A DNA stretch of 64,000 bases from Halalkalicoccus tibetensis. Lineage in GTDB: Archaea > Halobacteriota > Halobacteria > Halobacteriales > Halalkalicoccaceae. Shown here piece by piece: positions 1-8,151 of this stretch; the stretch's first letter is position 1; every line of letters begins with the position of its first letter. Location of the stretch: NCBI RefSeq assembly GCF_037996645.1, contig NZ_JBBMXV010000004.1, positions 273,684 to 337,683 on the forward strand, read 5' to 3'. The position numbers and the translations under genes were made by a program. The notes under the pieces were generated by a model. It worked only from the letters and a program-made list of their open reading frames with translations, had not been told where the DNA came from and did no database searches.

Positions 1-2
1 GA

Positions 3-1103
3 GAGCAGACGCCGCGGACGTCGTTCAGTTACGACGACAAGCGCGAGATAGCAGCGGTGCTGGACGAGATGGGGACCCACGTCATCGAGGCCGGGTTCCC
101 CGTCAACAGCGACGCGGAGTTCGAGGCGGTCAGCGACATCGCCGCCTCGACGAGTTCGACGGTCTGCGGGCTGGCCCGCGTCGTCGAGAAGGACGTCGAG
201 AGCGCGATCGATTCGGGCGTGGGGATGATCCACGTCTTCGTCTCGACCAGCGACGTCCAGATCGAGGACTCGATGCACGCCACCCGTGAGGACGTCAAGG
301 AGCGGGCGGTCGAATCGGTACAGCGCGTCAACGACGCGGGCGTCGAGGTGATGTTCTCGCCGATGGACGCCACGCGCACCGACAGCGAGTTCCTCGCCGA
401 GATCCTCGAGGCCGTCGACGAGGTCGGCGTCGACTGGATCAACATCCCCGACACCTGCGGGGTCGCGACCCCCAGTCGAATGAGCGCGCTGGTGAAGCTC
501 GTCCGCGAGCACACCGACGCGCGCGTCGACGTCCACGCCCACGACGACTTCGGGATGGCGAGCGCGAACGCCATCGCCGGCTTCGAGGCCGGCGCCGAGC
601 AGGCCCAGGTCAGCGTCAACGGCATCGGCGAGCGCGCGGGCAACGCGGCCTACGAGGAGGTCGTGATGGCCGCCGAATCGATCTACGGGATCGACACCGG
701 GATCGACACGACGAGGATCACGGAGCTGTCGCGCCTGATCGAGGAGAAGAGCGACGTCCCGGTGCCGGCGAACAAGCCGATCGTCGGGGCAAACGCCTTC
801 TCCCACGAGAGCGGGATCCACGCTGCGGGCGTGATCGAGAACAGCGACACGTTCGAGCCGGGGATCATGACCCCCGAGATGGTCGGCGCGAAGCGCGAGC
901 TCGTGTTGGGCAAGCACACCGGCACCCACTCGGTCCGGGAGTTCCTGACCGAGGCCGGCTTCGATCCCACCGACGGGGAGGTCCGCGAGATCACCCGTCG
1001 GGTGAAGGACTACGGCGCGGAGAAGAACCGCGTCACCCGGAGCGACGTCGAGCGCTTCGCCCGCGAGATCGGGGTCTCTCGGGAGGAGGAGGTCAGAGCG
1101 TAG
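3..1103 (+). CDS. leuA: 2-isopropylmalate synthase (5' partial)
   Basis: The gene enters the window already open in frame 3; its start lies upstream. It belongs to the DRE-TIM metallolyase family, which condenses acetyl-CoA with 2-oxoisovalerate in leucine synthesis. Visible motifs are EQTPRTSF at the N-terminal edge, the metal-ligand motif VDVHAHDDFG (near nt 530), NGIGERAGN, and SGIHAAGV. The visible part is 366 residues and stops shortly after the catalytic barrel and linker, so the C-terminal allosteric domain of long LeuA proteins is not present. The downstream ilv-leu genes support LeuA, although citramalate synthase is a close relative and cannot be excluded by sequence alone. Confidence 0.9.
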   Translation, partial: EQTPRTSFSYDDKREIAAVLDEMGTHVIEAGFPVNSDAEFEAVSDIAASTSSTVCGLARVVEKDVESAIDSGVGMIHVFVSTSDVQIEDSMHATREDVKERAVESVQRVNDAGVEVMFSPMDATRTDSEFLAEILEAVDEVGVDWINIPDTCGVATPSRMSALVKLVREHTDARVDVHAHDDFGMASANAIAGFEAGAEQAQVSVNGIGERAGNAAYEEVVMAAESIYGIDTGIDTTRITELSRLIEEKSDVPVPANKPIVGANAFSHESGIHAAGVIENSDTFEPGIMTPEMVGAKRELVLGKHTGTHSVREFLTEAGFDPTDGEVREITRRVKDYGAEKNRVTRSDVERFAREIGVSREEEVRA

Positions 1104-1156
1104 ATGGCCCCTCGAGCGCGCGCCGGCCAGCGACGCCACAGCGGAGACGGGACCCG

Positions 1157-1171
1157 GAAGGGTTATTACCC
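1157..1171 (+). promoter_or_regulatory. Promoter of the ilv leader, TATA-like element inside an inverted repeat
   Basis: TTATTA at 1163-1168 lies about 30 bp before the ATG at 1195, the spacing of haloarchaeal promoters for leaderless transcripts. The element is embedded in GGGT-TATT-ACCC (1160-1171), a 4-bp inverted repeat that could be an operator covering the TATA box. The operator role is inference. Confidence 0.5.
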
Positions 1172-1194
1172 ACGGCTTCCCACACCGCAGATAG

Positions 1195-1278
1195 ATGCAG
1201 ACGACCACCGCTCTCGGGCCGGCGCTTCCCGACAGCGACGCGGTCGTAGCGCGCGCGCTCATTATTGTAGGGGTTTAG
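1195..1278 (+). CDS. Probable Ile/Val-rich leader peptide upstream of ilvB (27 aa)
   Basis: A 27-codon frame begins with ATG at 1195, immediately after an in-frame TAG, and ends with TAG at 1276-1278. Its last residues are ARALIIVGV, so branched-chain residues cluster at the end, as in bacterial ilv and ivb leader peptides. The two Ile codons are ATT-ATT and three Val codons are GTA, GTA and GTT, while the neighbouring structural genes use almost only ATC and GTC/GTG. The last codons run into a 7-bp hairpin, and a TATA-like element sits about 30 bp before the ATG. The frame is seen directly; a role as translation-sensing leader is inference, because ribosome-mediated attenuation is not an established mechanism in archaea. 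Confidence 0.6.
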   Translation: MQTTTALGPALPDSDAVVARALIIVGV

Positions 1279-1285
1279 CCCCTAC
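1267..1285 (+). promoter_or_regulatory. Attenuator-like hairpin overlapping the leader stop codon
   Basis: GTAGGGG (1267-1273) and CCCCTAC (1279-1285) form a perfect 7-bp stem with a TTTAG loop that contains the leader stop codon. The 5' arm directly follows the ATT-ATT codons, so a ribosome stalled there would mask it. A competing pairing is possible between 1247-1255 and 1334-1342 (9 bp). The rest of the gap, 1286-1419, is C-rich with no T-run typical of a terminator and no second promoter that I recognise before ilvB. Confidence 0.5.
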
Positions 1286-1419
1286 ACCACCCACTCTCCT
1301 CGACCCGGCCGCACCGTCTCCCGACCACCAGCACGCGCGCTATCCCAACCGATGAACCCACGAACCGACCGCTGTCGACCGCCGCATCGCCCGCAAACCA
1401 GTGCCGAACGGACCGAACG

Positions 1420-3165
1420 ATGAGCAAGCAAGCATCCACCACGATCGACGACGAGGAGAGCGATCCGGACGTCGAACTACCCGTCGAGAACGGCGCGAGT
1501 TCGGTGATCCGCGCGCTCGAGGGCGCGGGCGTCGAGACCTGCTTCGGCGTCCAGGGCGGGGCGATCATGCCCGTCTACGACGCGCTGTACGACTCCTCGA
1601 TCCGCCACGTCACGATGGCCCACGAGCAGGGCGCGGCCCACGCCGCGGACGCCTTCGGGATCGTCGCCGGCGAACCCGGCGTCTGTCTCGCGACCTCGGG
1701 GCCGGGCGCGACCAATCTCGTGACCGGGCTCGCGGACGCCGACATGGATTCGGACCCGGTCCTCGCGCTCACCGGCCAGGTCGCGACGGCGTCGGTCGGC
1801 AACGACGCCTTCCAGGAGACCGACACGACGGGCGTCACGCGCCCGATCACGAAGACGAACTACTTCGCGACCGACGCCGACACGGTCGGCGACACCGTCG
1901 CCGAGGCGTTCGCGCTCTCGGGGACGGGTCGACCCGGCCCCACGGTCGTCGACCTCCCGAAGGACGTCACCAACGCCGGAACCGACCGGGAGCCGGGCCC
2001 GCCCCGGACGCCCGACACCTACGACCCGCAGTACGAGGCCGACGACGAGGCCGTCGAGCAAGCGGTCCGGAGCCTCGAGCGCGCCGAGAAGCCCGTCATC
2101 CTGGCGGGCGGCGGCGTGATCAAGGGCGAGGCCAGCGACGCCCTCAGGGCCTTCGCCACCGAGTACGGGATCCCCGTCGTGACGACGATGCCCGCGCTGG
2201 GCTCGTTCCCCGAGGACCACGAGCTGGCGATGGAGATGGCCGGGATGCACGGCACCGGCTACGCGAACATGGCGATCACCCACTGCGATACGATGCTGGC
2301 GGTGGGCTGTCGGTTCGACGACCGCCTCACCGGCGGCATCGAGACGTTCGCGCCCGACGCCGAGGTCCTGCACGCGGACATCGACCCCGCGGAGATCTCG
2401 AAGAACATCGAGGCCGACGTCGCGCTGATCGGCGACGCCGGCACCGTCCTCGAGCAGCTCGACGCCGAGATGACCCGGGCGCCCGACGCTCCCGAGTGGC
2501 GCGAGCAGTGTACGACGTGGAAGGCCGAGTACCCGATGGACTACGCCGCGCCCGAGGAGCGGCCGCTGCGCCCCGAGTTCGCCGTCGAGGCGATGGACGA
2601 GGCGACGCCCGACGACGCGATCGTCACCACGGGCGTCGGTCAGCACCAGATGTGGGCGTGTCAGTACTGGACCTATCGCCACCCGCGGACGTGGGTCTCC
2701 TCCCATGGGTTAGGAACGATGGGCTACGGCCTGCCCGCCGCGATCGGCGCGAAGGTCGCGAAGCCCGACACCGAGGTCGTCTGCTTCGAGGGCGACGGCT
2801 CCTTTTTGATGACCTGTCAGGAGCTCGCGGTCGCGGTGCGGGAGAACCTCGACATCACCGTCGCGGTGTTGAACAACTCCTCGGTGGGGATGGTCCGCCA
2901 GTGGCAGGACGCCTTCTTCGAGGGGCGCCACTCGGCCTCGCAGTACCCGTGGGTGCCCGCGTTCGACAAGCTCGCCGAGGCGTTCGGCGCACAGGGCTTC
3001 TCGGTCCACGAGTACGACGAGGTCGTCGAAACCGTCGAGGCCGCGATCGCCCACGACGGCCCCTCGGTGATCGACTTCCACATCGACCCCGAGTCGAACG
3101 TCTACCCGATGGTGCCCAGCGGCGGGGACAACGGGCAGTTCGCCCTCTCGGAGGACCAGCTATGA
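1420..3165 (+). CDS. ilvB: Acetolactate synthase, large catalytic subunit
   Basis: This 581-residue thiamine-diphosphate enzyme makes 2-acetolactate or 2-aceto-2-hydroxybutyrate, the first common step of Val/Leu/Ile synthesis. The PYR-domain glutamate lies in HEQGAAHAADAFG (about residue 68), a central FAD/DHP-type domain follows, and the ThDP/Mg motif starts at GDGSFLM (about residue 457) and ends in LNNSSVGMV. Length is normal for the family. The stop codon overlaps the ilvN start (ATGA), indicating translational coupling with the regulatory subunit. It lies 141 bp after the leader peptide. Confidence 0.97.
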   Translation: MSKQASTTIDDEESDPDVELPVENGASSVIRALEGAGVETCFGVQGGAIMPVYDALYDSSIRHVTMAHEQGAAHAADAFGIVAGEPGVCLATSGPGATNLVTGLADADMDSDPVLALTGQVATASVGNDAFQETDTTGVTRPITKTNYFATDADTVGDTVAEAFALSGTGRPGPTVVDLPKDVTNAGTDREPGPPRTPDTYDPQYEADDEAVEQAVRSLERAEKPVILAGGGVIKGEASDALRAFATEYGIPVVTTMPALGSFPEDHELAMEMAGMHGTGYANMAITHCDTMLAVGCRFDDRLTGGIETFAPDAEVLHADIDPAEISKNIEADVALIGDAGTVLEQLDAEMTRAPDAPEWREQCTTWKAEYPMDYAAPEERPLRPEFAVEAMDEATPDDAIVTTGVGQHQMWACQYWTYRHPRTWVSSHGLGTMGYGLPAAIGAKVAKPDTEVVCFEGDGSFLMTCQELAVAVRENLDITVAVLNNSSVGMVRQWQDAFFEGRHSASQYPWVPAFDKLAEAFGAQGFSVHEYDEVVETVEAAIAHDGPSVIDFHIDPESNVYPMVPSGGDNGQFALSEDQL

Positions 3166-3848
3166 GCGAACAGGAACCGGAACAGCGGGTCAACGAGCTG
3201 CGGGGGCCCGCACCCGAGGAGCGCCCCCGGCCGACGGGCCGGCGAAACAGCCAGGGGATGCGGATCGACCCCGAGGTCGAGGCCGAGCCCCGATCCCGGC
3301 GGACCGCGATCTCGGCGCTGGTCGAGAACGAGCCCGGCGTGCTCGCGAAGGCCTCGGGACTGGTCTCCCGGCGGCAGTTCAACATCGAGAGCCTCACCGT
3401 GGGGACGACGACCAATCCCGAGACCTCGCGGATCACGCTCGTCATCGAGGAGCCCGAGCCGGGGATCCGGCAGGTCGAGAAGCAGCTGGAGAAGCTGCTG
3501 CCCGTGATCTCGGTCCAGGAGCTGGGCGACAGCGCGATCCAGCGCGAGCTGGTGATCCTGAAGGTCCACGGCGACGAGCCCGACAAGGTCCAGGCGGTCA
3601 CCGAGATGTACGACGGGACCGTCCTGGACGCCGGCCCGCGGACGATCTCGATCGAGATCACCGGCGGCGAGGGGAAGATCGACGACGCGATCGACGCGTT
3701 CCAGCAGTTCGGCATCCGCGAGCTGGCCCGGACGGGCCAGACCGCGATCGCGCGCGGCGACGTCTGGACGACGGACGTCGAGGAGGAACGGTACGAACGA
3801 ATGCACGAGAGCTGGCGGACCACGACGACGACCACGAACGATGACTGA
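3162..3848 (+). CDS. ilvN: Acetolactate synthase, small regulatory subunit
   Basis: This 228-residue protein carries an ACT domain beginning at about residue 47 ([20 protein letters not shown], then FNIESLTVG), the fold through which valine normally inhibits acetolactate synthase, and a C-terminal ALS_ss_C-type domain. The N-terminal 45 residues are a charged, proline-rich extension. The start is the ATG overlapping the ilvB stop. The 3' end overlaps ilvC by 8 bp. The threonine run just before the C terminus ([11 protein letters not shown]) is probably disordered. Confidence 0.95.
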
Positions 3849-4878
3849 GGAAGCAACGATCTACTACGACGACGACGCACAGCGCAGCCAGATCGAGGAC
3901 AAGACCGTAGCCGTTCTGGGCTACGGCAGCCAGGGCCACGCCCACGCACAGAACCTCGCCGACAGCGGGATCGACGTGGTCGTCGGTCTCAAGGAGGGGT
4001 CGTCCTCCCGGGACGCCGCCCGCGAGGACGGCCTCTCGGTGGGGACCCCGAAGGAGGCCGCCGCACAGGCCGAGATCGTGAGCGTGCTGGTGCCCGACAC
4101 GGTCCAGCCCGCGGTCTACGCCGACATCGAGGAGGAGCTCGAACCCGGGAACACGCTGCAGTTCGCCCACGGGTTCAACATCCACTACAACCAGATCAAT
4201 CCCCCCGAGGACGTCGACGTGACGATGATCGCGCCGAAGACGCCCGGGCACCTCCTCAGGAGGAACTACGAGAACGACGAGGGCACGCCCGCGCTGCTCG
4301 CGATCTACCAGGACGCAACGGGCGAGGCCAAGGACGAGGCGCTCGCGTACGGCCAGGCGATCGGCTGTACGCGCGCGGGCGTCGTCGAGACCACCTTCCG
4401 CGAGGAGACCGAGACCGACCTGTTCGGCGAGCAGGCGGTGCTCTGTGGCGGGATCGCGAGCCTGATCAAGCAGGGCTACGAGACGCTGGTCGACGCGGGC
4501 TACAGCCCGCAGATGGCCTACTTCGAGTGTCTCAACGAGATGAAGCTCATCGTCGACCTGATGTACGAGGACGGGCTCGGCGGGATGTGGGACTCGGTCT
4601 CCGATACGGCGGAGTACGGCGGGCTCACCCAGGGCGACGTCGTCATCGACGACCACGCCCGCGAGAACATGGAGGAGGTCCTGCAGGGCGTCCAGGACGG
4701 CACGTTCGCCCGCGAGTGGATCGCGGAGAACCAGGCCGGGCGGCCGAGCTACACCCAGCTGCGCCAGGCCGAGAAGGACCACGAGATCGAGGAGGTCGGC
4801 GCGGAGCTGCGCGCGCTGTTCGCGTGGGCCGAGGAGGAGGACGAGGACGAACAGGAGAGGGTGACCGCGGATGACTGA
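3841..4878 (+). CDS. ilvC: Ketol-acid reductoisomerase
   Basis: This 345-residue class I (short) KARI converts acetohydroxy acids to dihydroxy acids with Mg2+ and NAD(P)H. The Rossmann motif GYGSQG is at residues 27-32. The C-terminal knotted domain shows the metal-ligand region [16 protein letters not shown] and the [13 protein letters not shown] helix. The start overlaps ilvN by 8 bp. The C terminus is an acidic tail typical of haloarchaeal proteins, and it overlaps the next small ORF. Confidence 0.97.
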
Positions 4879-5110
4879 TGAGAAACAGCGGATGAAGGAC
4901 GTCGATCACACCCACCCCTACGACGACCGGAGCGCGGGCGCGCTGTTCGCGCGCGGGCCGGTCGTGGCCGCGGACGGCGGGCGTGATCCGAACCGGGAGC
5001 CGAACGAGAGCATGAAGGACGTCGATCACACCCCGCCGCACGACGAGGAGGGCGCGACGCGCGTCTTCGAGCGCGGCGAGGAGTACGACGGGGACGTAGT
5101 AGAAGAATGA
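4871..5110 (+). CDS. Small conserved-context protein with a duplicated MKDVDHT motif
   Basis: This 79-residue acidic protein is locked between ilvC and leuC, overlapping each by 8 and 4 bp, which argues that it is translated. Residues 8-29 and 48-69 are two copies of the pattern MKDVDHTxPxD...F.RG. The copies are exactly 40 codons apart, and the first 22 nt of each (from 4892 and from 5012) are identical at DNA level. There is no signal peptide or membrane segment. I do not recognise a family; the repeated DHT/HP residues could bind metal, but that is speculation. Confidence 0.8.
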
Positions 5111-6528
5111 GCGAACGCACCCTCTACGACAAGGTCTGGGACGAGCACGCTGTCACCGAACTCCCCACGGGCCAGACCCAGCTGTTCGTGGGCCTGCACC
5201 TCATCCACGAGGTGACCAGCCCGCAGGCGTTCGGGATGCTCAAGGAGCGCGACATGGAGGTCGCATACCCCGAGCGCACCCACGCGACGGTCGACCACAT
5301 CGTCCCGACGGCGGATCAGTCCCGACCGTACGGCGACGACGCCGCCGAGGAGATGATGCGCGAGCTCGAGGAGAACGTCCGCGAGGCGGGCATCGAGTTC
5401 GACCATCCCGACACCGGCGACCAGGGGATCGTCCACGTCATCGGCCCCGAGCAGGGGATCACCCAGCCGGGGATGACGATCGTCTGTGGCGACTCCCATA
5501 CGAGCACGCACGGCGCGTTCGGCGCGCTCGCCTTTGGCATCGGAACCAGCCAGATCCGCGACGTGCTCGCGACGGGGACGGTCGCGATGGAGAAACAGAA
5601 AGTGAGGAAGATCGAGGTCACGGGCGAGCTCGGCGACGGCGTCGAGGCCAAGGACGTGATCCTCGAGATAATCAGGAGACTGGGCACCGAGGGTGGCGTC
5701 GGCTACATCTACGAGTACGCCGGCGAGGCCATCGAGAACCTCGGCATGGAGGGTCGGATGTCGATCTGCAACATGTCGATCGAGGGCGGGGCCCGCGCGG
5801 GCTACGTCAACCCCGACGAGACCACCTACGAGTGGCTCGCCGAGACCGACGCCTTCGAGGACGACCCCGAGCGATTCGAGCGGCTCAAGCCCTACTGGGA
5901 GTCGGTTCGTTCGGACGAGGACGCCGAGTACGACGACGTCGTCACGATCGACGGCTCGTCGCTGGAGCCGGTCGTCACCTGGGGCACGACCCCGGGCCAG
6001 GGCGTCGGCATCACCCAGCCGATCCCCCATCCCGACGAACTGCCCGCGGACAAGCAGGACACCGCCCGGCGCGCCCAGGACCACATGCGCGTCGAGCCCG
6101 GCGACACGATGGAGGGCTACCCCATCGACGTCGCCTTCCTCGGCTCGTGTACGAACGCCCGATTGGCCGACCTGCGCCGCGCGGCCGAACTCGTCGAGGG
6201 CCGCGAAGTCCCCGAGGACGTCCGGGCGCTCGTCGTCCCCGGCAGCCAGCGCGTCCAGCGCGCCGCCGAGGAGGAGGGCCTGAAGGACGTCTTCGAGACC
6301 GCGGGCTTCGAGTGGCGAAATGCCGGCTGTTCGATGTGTCTGGGCATGAACGAGGATCAGTTGGAGGGCGATCAGGCGTGTGCCTCCTCGTCGAACCGCA
6401 ACTTCGTCGGCCGCCAGGGGAGCAAGGACGGGCGCACCGTCCTGATGAACCCCCGGATGGTCGCCGCGGCGGCGATCACCGGCGAGGTGACCGACGTGCG
6501 TACGCTGGAGGAGGTGAGCCTGGCATGA
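5107..6528 (+). CDS. leuC: 3-isopropylmalate dehydratase, large subunit
   Basis: This 473-residue aconitase-family protein isomerises 2- to 3-isopropylmalate together with LeuD. Its three [4Fe-4S] ligands are visible in GSCTNARL and in [10 protein letters not shown], and [13 protein letters not shown] is the typical substrate-side motif. The start ATG overlaps the preceding stop, and its own stop overlaps the leuD start (ATGA). Homoaconitase-type paralogues share these motifs, but the leu operon context decides the call. Confidence 0.96.
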
Positions 6529-7181
6529 GCACCGAGAACGAACGGGACGCGAACCGCGAGGACGGGCCCGCCGAGATCGTCGACCGCGTCTCGGGCACCG
6601 GCATCCCGATCCGGGGCAACGACATCGACACCGACCAGATCATCCCCGCGCGGTTCATGAAGGTCGTCACCTTCGACGGGCTGGGCGAGTTCGCCTTCTT
6701 CGACCAGCGCTTCGACGGCGAGGACAACGAGAAGGACCACCCGTTCAACGAGGAGCAGTATCAGGGGGCGAACGTCATGGTGGTCAACGCGAACTTCGGC
6801 TGTGGCTCCTCGCGCGAGCACGCACCCCAGGCGCTTCAGCGCTGGGGGATCGACGCCATCGTCGGCGAGTCGTTCGCGTCCATCTTCGCGGGCAACTGCC
6901 TCGCGCTCGGCATTCCCACGGTGACCGCGAGCCCCGAGGAGATCGGCGCGCTCCAGGCGTTCGTCGAGGAGAACCCCGACGCCGAGATCACCGTCGACGT
7001 CGAGCGCGAGCTCGTCGTCTACGGGAGCGGCGACGAGGAGACGGCGGTCAACGTCGACGTCGCGGACGCCCAGCACAAGGCGCTCGTCGAGGGCGTCTGG
7101 GACACCACGGCACTGATGAAAGCCAACGAGGACGCGGTGCGCGAGACCGCCGACTCCCTGCCATACATGAGCGATGACTGA
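6525..7181 (+). CDS. leuD: 3-isopropylmalate dehydratase, small subunit
   Basis: This 218-residue swivelling-domain partner of LeuC contains [14 protein letters not shown] near the N terminus and the diagnostic [15 protein letters not shown]. The N-terminal 15 residues are an acidic extension. The start was chosen as the ATG overlapping the leuC stop. The 3' end overlaps leuB by 8 bp, continuing the tight operon. Confidence 0.95.
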
Positions 7182-8151
7182 GGAGATCGCCGTCGTCCCT
7201 GGCGACGGGATCGGCCAGGAGGTGACGCCCGCCGCCGTGGAGGTGCTCGAAGCCGTCGGCGAGTTCGAGTTCACGGAGGCCGACGCCGGCGACGCGGTAA
7301 AGGACGAAACCGGCGAGGCACTGCCCGAGGAGACCTACGAACTGGCCGCGAGCGCGGACGCGACGCTGTTCGGTGCCGCGGGCGAGAGCGCGGCCGACGT
7401 GATCCTCCCGCTGCGGGAGGCCGTCGGCTCCTTTGTCAACGTCCGGCCCGCCCGCGCGTATCCCGGCGTCGACGCGCTGCGCCCCGAGACGGACCTCGTC
7501 TTCCTGCGGGAGAACACCGAGGGCGTCTACTCGGGCCACGAGAACAGGCTGAGCGAGGACCTCTCGACGCTCACTCGCGTGGTGACGAGTTCGGCCTCGG
7601 AGCGCCTCGCGGAGTTCGCCTGCGAGTACGTCGCCGAGGGCGACCACGACGGCTTCACTGTCGCCCACAAGGCCAACGTGATGCGCGAGACGGACGGACG
7701 GTTCCGCGAGGACGTGTTGGCGGTCGCCGAGGAGCGCGGCGTCGACGCCGACGAGGTGCTGATGGACGCTTTCGCGACCCACGTCTGTCTTGACCCTGAA
7801 GAGTTCGGCGTCGTCGTCTGTCCGAACCTCGCGGGCGACGTACTTTCGGACTTGGCGGCCGGCCTCGTCGGCGGGCTCGGCTTGCTTCCGAGCGCGAACA
7901 TCGGCGAGGAGAACGCGCTGTTCGAGCCGGTCCACGGCACCGCCCCCGACATCGCCGGCGAGGGGGTCGCCAACCCGACCGCCGCCATCCTGAGCGCGGC
8001 GATGTTGCTCGATCATCTGGGCTACGACGAGGAGAGCGAGCGGGTCGACAGTGCGGTGACGGGCGTGCTCGAGGAGGGCCCCCGGACGGCGGACCTCGGC
8101 GGCGAGGCGAGCACCGAGGACGTGACGAGCGCGATCGTCGACCGCCTGTAG
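7174..8151 (+). CDS. leuB: 3-isopropylmalate dehydrogenase
   Basis: This 325-residue beta-decarboxylating dehydrogenase oxidises 3-isopropylmalate to 2-oxoisocaproate. Motifs are the N-terminal [21 protein letters not shown], the metal/NAD region [20 protein letters not shown] and the NAD loop [15 protein letters not shown]. It is the last gene of the operon; the next gene starts 301 bp downstream. Confidence 0.95.

Follow-up and report, generated by a model that had tools for sequence, protein, structure and literature searches.

A candidate ribosome-sensing Ile/Val leader peptide upstream of ilvBNC-leuCDB in haloarchaea

The leader locus upstream of ilvB

The window is the whole stretch of DNA analyzed here, 64,000 nt of the Halalkalicoccus tibetensis genome (contig NZ_JBBMXV010000004.1, positions 273,684 to 337,683). 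Near its start it carries ilvBNC and leuCDB, preceded by two short frames, uORF1 and uORF2 (Table 1). A sequence-only reading of the window had claimed a TATA-like element, a 27-codon frame with a stop codon of its own directly upstream, a frame end written in codons rare in the neighboring genes, and a perfect 7-bp hairpin directly after ATT-ATT whose loop contains the stop codon. Each of these was recovered, and the coordinates it gave were right. uORF1 runs from the ATG at 1195 to the TAG at 1276–1278, and an in-frame TAG (1192–1194) abuts the ATG. Near its end it reads ATT-ATT-GTA-GGG-GTT (1261–1275). Over ilvBNC, leuCDB and the stretch of leuA that lies within the window, ATT makes up 1/116 Ile codons, while GTA and GTT make up 4/231 and 2/231 Val codons, respectively. 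The hairpin arms are GTAGGGG (1267–1273) and CCCCTAC (1279–1285). RNAfold lengthens the stem to 9 bp, with −14.4 kcal/mol for 1264–1288. An Rfam covariance-model scan of window positions 900–1600 returned no match to T-box, riboswitch or leader families at E up to 1. Farther downstream, a 79-aa ORF between ilvC and leuC (4871–5110) holds an internal repeat.

Table 1. Features of the ilvB leader locus and the genes behind it, in window coordinates.
Feature	Position	Strand	Basis or remark
TATA-like element GTTATTAC	1162–1169	+	putative leader promoter; transcript predicted to start at the uORF1 ATG or just 5' of it; A/T peaks in 115 loci
uORF1, leader peptide MQTTTALGPALPDSDAVVARALIIVGV, then stop	1195–1278	+	frame maintained in 115 distinct loci, length variable
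Strand A of long-range helix, inside uORF1, 5' of the Ile codons	1247–1255	+	complementary to 1334–1342; strands covary in some lineages
Regulatory codons ATT-ATT-GTA (Ile-Ile-Val)	1261–1269	+	codon conservation in 115 loci
Hairpin GTAGGGG-TTTAG-CCCCTAC, uORF1 stop in loop	1267–1285	+	conserved
G-poor C/T-rich tract immediately 3' of hairpin	1286–1302	+	base composition in 113 loci
Strand A' of long-range helix, just 5' of the uORF2 start	1334–1342	+	as strand A; helix surrounds the hairpin
uORF2, MNPRTDRCRPPHRPQTSAERTER, then stop; stop overlaps ilvB start (ATGA)	1352–1423	+	comparable frame in 102/115 loci
ilvB, acetolactate synthase large subunit; first gene controlled (proposed)	1420–3165	+	open frame; name by homology
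ilvN	3162–3848	+	open frame; name by homology
ilvC	3841–4878	+	open frame; name by homology
leuC	5107–6528	+	open frame; name by homology
leuD	6525–7181	+	open frame; name by homology
leuB	7174–8151	+	open frame; name by homology

Conservation of uORF1 and its codons

The sequence-only reading had suggested a search of other haloarchaeal ilvB upstream regions. Loci were gathered from relatives, named public genomes and extra upstream stretches, 130 in total. The leader motif was found in 124/130 loci, 115 of them distinct, and the frame, the rare codons and the hairpin are all three conserved, so the comparison does not refute the claimed leader. Every examined genome of the window's genus has the ATG frame, the ATT/GTA codons and the hairpin. 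Six loci lack the standard motif. One (L103) is truncated, and one (L112) has a diverged leader with the frame end IRVRAAMAH and GGGCC/GGCCC arms. The other four (L127–L130) are deep branches with 56–59% IlvB identity; they have no leader, and ilvB follows leuA almost directly. The recurrence of frame, codons and hairpin in 115 distinct haloarchaeal loci rules out a chance resemblance confined to one genome, to which we give practically no weight. On its own, the pattern GTAGGGG..CCCC is not specific enough for scanning genomes. Outside the order, ATTGTAGGGG..CCCC had one match in each of seven genomes of other families, which were taken as chance.

The 115 distinct upstream regions share A/T peaks at −37/−36 (BRE) and −32 to −29 (TATA) from the uORF1 ATG, and no comparable peak precedes ilvB. 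This spacing predicts that the leader transcript starts at or beside the uORF1 ATG and is translated leaderless. uORF1 is a frame of about 27 codons ending Ile-Val-Gly-Ala/Val, with 16 to 39 codons up to GGG. As a test of the frame, the TATA box was located first, blind to frame, and the next ATG was then taken. This ATG shared the reading frame of the IVG codons in 80/83 loci, compared with one third expected.

Immediately before GGG stands GTA in 113/115 loci, which includes every case of Val, and ATT in 2/115. The codon preceding this position encodes Ile in 111/115 loci, 96 of them with ATT. Over codons 1–100 of ilvB across loci, GTA is 0.9% of the Val codons and ATT 8.7% of the Ile codons. 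Ile makes up 36% of the last five codons before GGG and 1% elsewhere in uORF1.

Among nearest relatives, changed uORF1 codons comprise 157 non-synonymous and 67 synonymous cases, which is near neutral. The N-terminal part of the peptide drifts, while the last codons are fixed to the third base and the TATA box and hairpin are kept. This indicates that the codons and not a protein are under selection. A small trans-acting protein encoded by uORF1 could account for the conserved C-terminal IVGA/V. It is very unlikely, given the almost neutral drift of the rest of the peptide and the fixed synonymous sites of its last codons.

GTA is also invariant in the 32/113 loci where its A cannot pair, and codon reading alone does not explain this invariance beyond pairing. 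The near-invariant bases, GTA included, might instead form a site for a DNA- or RNA-binding regulator, with the frame incidental to it. We consider such a site improbable because the frame is conserved (80/83), the spacing between the arms ranges from 5 to 11, second ilvB copies have ATT in place of GTA, and matching Phe and Trp leaders precede pheS and trpS.

Hairpin, uORF2 and the possible output

The hairpin stem is 5–11 bp long and 5–11 nt separate GGGG from CCCC. The uORF1 stop lies in the loop in 89/115 and beyond the 3' arm in 26/115. Compared with its own dinucleotide shuffles, the 30-nt segment with the hairpin folds more stably (mean z −2.8). Because the four central G-C pairs are almost invariant, they carry little information on their own. 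Behind CCCC the sequence is C/T-rich, most of the next 14 positions having 0–6% G (113 loci), and the longest T run averages 2.5, compared with 1.25 farther on. No U-tract follows the hairpin in these 113 loci. Its absence leaves termination unproven and does not support a classical bacterial intrinsic terminator.

The sequence-only reading had also noted a pairing between 1247–1255 and 1334–1342 and called it competing. The pairing is there (TAGCGCGCG/CGCGCGCTA), but it encloses the hairpin, with one strand to either side, which makes the two helices nested and compatible and not alternatives; the minimum free energy fold of 1243–1350 contains both. In several lineages the two strands change together: GTCGAGCGCG/CGCGCTCGAC in Halorussus, GTGGCTGTCGG/CCGACAGCCAC in L030, TGCTGTCGGTT/AACCGACAGCA in L109 and GTGTGATC/GATCACAC in L033. 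RNAduplex energies between uORF1 and the region before uORF2 gave no signal against dinucleotide shuffles (mean z +0.13). They were replaced by a helix-based cross-species test, which lends lineage-limited support only. In this test 21/33 sequence clusters showed no sign of the helix (p above 0.2) and the combined significance over the 33 clusters was modest (Fisher p 0.03), so the helix was treated as lineage-limited. It adjoins the uORF2 start in some lineages only. A mutually exclusive antiterminator pairing was sought; the sole long-range helix found was this nested and lineage-limited one.

Beyond the features named by the sequence-only reading, most relatives have uORF2 and a Shine-Dalgarno (SD) motif before ilvB. 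uORF2 mostly lies 65–80 nt farther downstream of uORF1. It overlaps or abuts the ilvB start in 102/115 loci versus 13% in dinucleotide shuffles, and in 95 loci its stop lies at +1 relative to the ilvB start. By eye, some loci without an ATG-type uORF2 carry GTG at the same position. An SD-like motif precedes ilvB in 79% of loci versus 3.7% at other positions; the window has the overlap but no SD motif. With stop and start overlapping in most of the 115 loci and an SD motif in 79%, uORF2 and ilvB have the layout of termination-reinitiation. In Haloferax volcanii SD motifs are inactive in 5'-UTRs, and the usual layout of haloarchaeal distal genes is an SD motif inside the upstream frame plus a 4-nt overlap, for which reinitiation has been proposed (PMC3986360). 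The uORF2-ilvB arrangement fits that layout. Substitutions in uORF2 have no third-position bias, so the argument concerns its frame and overlap and not its peptide. A GTATCG/GCATCG element (Tyr/His-Arg codons, as in RYRP) recurs in or near uORF2 in many families, at 1370–1395 in the window.

We propose, with a probability of about 0.8, that 1195–1278 encodes a ribosome-sensing leader peptide controlling ilvBNC-leuCDB by charged Ile- and Val-tRNA. The sensor part, a leaderless start followed by the reading of rare codons, is strongly supported by the comparison of loci. From the TATA spacing, transcription is predicted to begin at the uORF1 ATG or immediately beside it. A ribosome would load on the leaderless 5' end and read the rare ATT-ATT-GTA directly 5' of the GGGG arm, and would stall there if Ile or Val is scarce. 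Judging from geometry and ribosome size, its footprint would then lie over the 5' arm of the hairpin, and over strand A where present. With both amino acids plentiful, the ribosome would reach the stop codon and leave, allowing the hairpin, and in some lineages the A-A' helix, to form. The folded state would probably lower downstream expression, either by halting RNA polymerase at the hairpin and the G-poor pyrimidine tract or by closing the uORF2 start region, uORF2 translation being coupled to that of ilvB via the overlapping stop and start. For this last step we give termination about an even chance, translation a somewhat smaller one and any other output little; the two are inseparable from sequence.

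In its full form the termination reading has RNA polymerase stopping at the free hairpin and pyrimidine tract, with or without help from aCPSF1/FttA, and reading on only when the 5' arm is covered by a stalled ribosome. This is possible, though short of an even bet. The hairpin is present in 115/115 loci with the G-poor C/T-rich tract right behind it, and in H. volcanii an inserted hairpin lacking a T-stretch was enough for 59% termination, which makes termination conceivable here (PMC7237163). However, intergenic terminators of that species consist of a T-stretch plus C (PMC7237163), the leader has no T-stretch, and termination leaves uORF2 unexplained. In the translational reading, folding of the leader masks the uORF2 start region, ribosome stalling exposes it again, and ribosomes translating uORF2 pass on to ilvB by reinitiation; the uORF2-ilvB overlap makes this possible. 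The frequencies of that overlap and of the SD motif, both well above background, argue for it, as does the fact that in some lineages the long-range helix ends next to the uORF2 start. Against it stand the patchy occurrence of this helix, the lack of third-position bias in uORF2 and the missing SD motif in the window; we hold this reading only tentatively.

Related leaders and known systems

Rare second ilvB copies (ilvB2) have Ile-only leaders (IIAIIAIIGVS and GIIGIIGIIGAPQ). In the leader sequences of such copies (ASIIAIIAIIGVS, GIIGIIGIIGAPQ, MQWSTIPGRSSVGSGASIIAIIAIIGVS and MTRSTAPESTLVTSGISDSATGIIGIIGIIGAPQ, each followed by a stop), GTA is lost, the Ile codons are multiplied and GGGG/CCCC is retained. 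Phe-run leaders precede pheS in 6/11 loci (L173, L175, L179–L182) versus 0/50 other loci, with the ends GFGFFFAR, GFDFFFAA, RFGVRFFFAS, GFGFFFAA, GFAFFQPA and GFGFFLSG. W-x-W leaders precede bacterial-type trpS in 4/5 loci (L183–L186) versus 1/56 other loci, with the motifs AWRWR, CWRWH, CWRWR and RWRWR; the leader in the window's genome is MATSQAICWRWRAFREVDSIAV, then stop. These pheS and trpS frames lie behind TATA-like elements. The switch of second ilvB copies to Ile codons, and the presence in pheS and trpS leaders of the enzyme's own amino acid, favor codon reading. Searches for leaders ahead of hisG, trpE and archaeal-type trpS found none, and no pheS leader was found in the window's genus. 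A leuS search gave mostly internal domain matches and was left out of the comparison.

Mapping of H. volcanii 5' ends by dRNA-seq had located uORFs upstream of pheS (26 aa) and trpS (23 aa) (PMC4983044), which fit the leaders found here. That study covers 5'-UTRs only up to 250 nt, does not mention attenuation, tabulates uORFs without peptide sequences and does not list ilvB (PMC4983044). Some of the unexplained uORFs mapped in H. volcanii thus gain a likely function.

We think it rather probable that these frames belong to a general haloarchaeal layer of charged-tRNA-sensing leaders, responding to Ile/Val at ilvB, Ile at ilvB2, Phe at pheS, Trp at bacterial-type trpS and perhaps Leu via leuA2 frameshifting. 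Such a layer would be the first known in Archaea and would use leaderless translation and reinitiation from uORF2 to the gene, not a U-tract terminator. Leader-peptide attenuation is a textbook bacterial mechanism, and its existence in Archaea is an open question. No earlier archaeal case was found in the open-licence papers searched, which is not proof of novelty. Since the leader is conserved in haloarchaea, kin of the tractable model H. volcanii, amino-acid sensing by the archaeal ribosome, and the switching of an operon by it, becomes directly testable. The leaders may also provide natural reporters of how transcription and translation are coupled, of reinitiation, and of archaeal termination that depends on a hairpin or on aCPSF1.

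Among bacterial ilv/ivb leader-peptide attenuators are IvbL and IlvL of E. coli. The haloarchaeal ilvB leader resembles them in its short frame before an ilvB-type operon, its run of branched-chain codons, and a hairpin overlapping or following that run, and it appears to work like a bacterial attenuator. It differs in its predicted archaeal promoter and leaderless start and in a uORF2 coupled to ilvB. The sequence-only reading had recognized the architecture of such attenuators, which holds for the Ile/Val frame and hairpin upstream of ilvBNC-leuCDB. The leader is not classed as a bacterial-type attenuator, since a U-tract and an exclusive antiterminator were looked for and not found. Translational attenuators of the bacterial ermC/cat type sense an antibiotic and not an amino acid. 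The haloarchaeal leader would share with them the opening of the start region of a downstream frame by a stalled ribosome, but it would sense an amino acid, and its link to ilvB would run through uORF2. PheM, the leader of E. coli pheST, is Phe-rich and precedes phenylalanyl-tRNA synthetase. The haloarchaeal pheS leaders are likewise Phe-rich and precede the gene for the same enzyme, whereas they are leaderless frames behind a TATA box. A further bacterial attenuator of the ilv/ivb kind is that of C. glutamicum ilvBNC (PMC11857589).

A separate observation concerns leuA, which occupies window positions 1–1103 with its start upstream of the window (about 1260–1345 in L164). Some 80 related loci mostly have no usable ATG, GTG or TTG before the conserved EFFQGTL. 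A leaderless ATG opens a frame that passes over the near-invariant GGNGGRTCGAGTTCTTC and ends out of the leuA frame (in the window with RGGRVLPGHVSFQ and a stop), and a likely stem-loop lies just 5' of GGNGGRTCGAGTTCTTC. A conserved +1 frameshift is therefore suggested. For HVO_1510 the difficulty with the start has been described before, and slippage when leucine is lacking has been a matter of speculation (PMC8305020).
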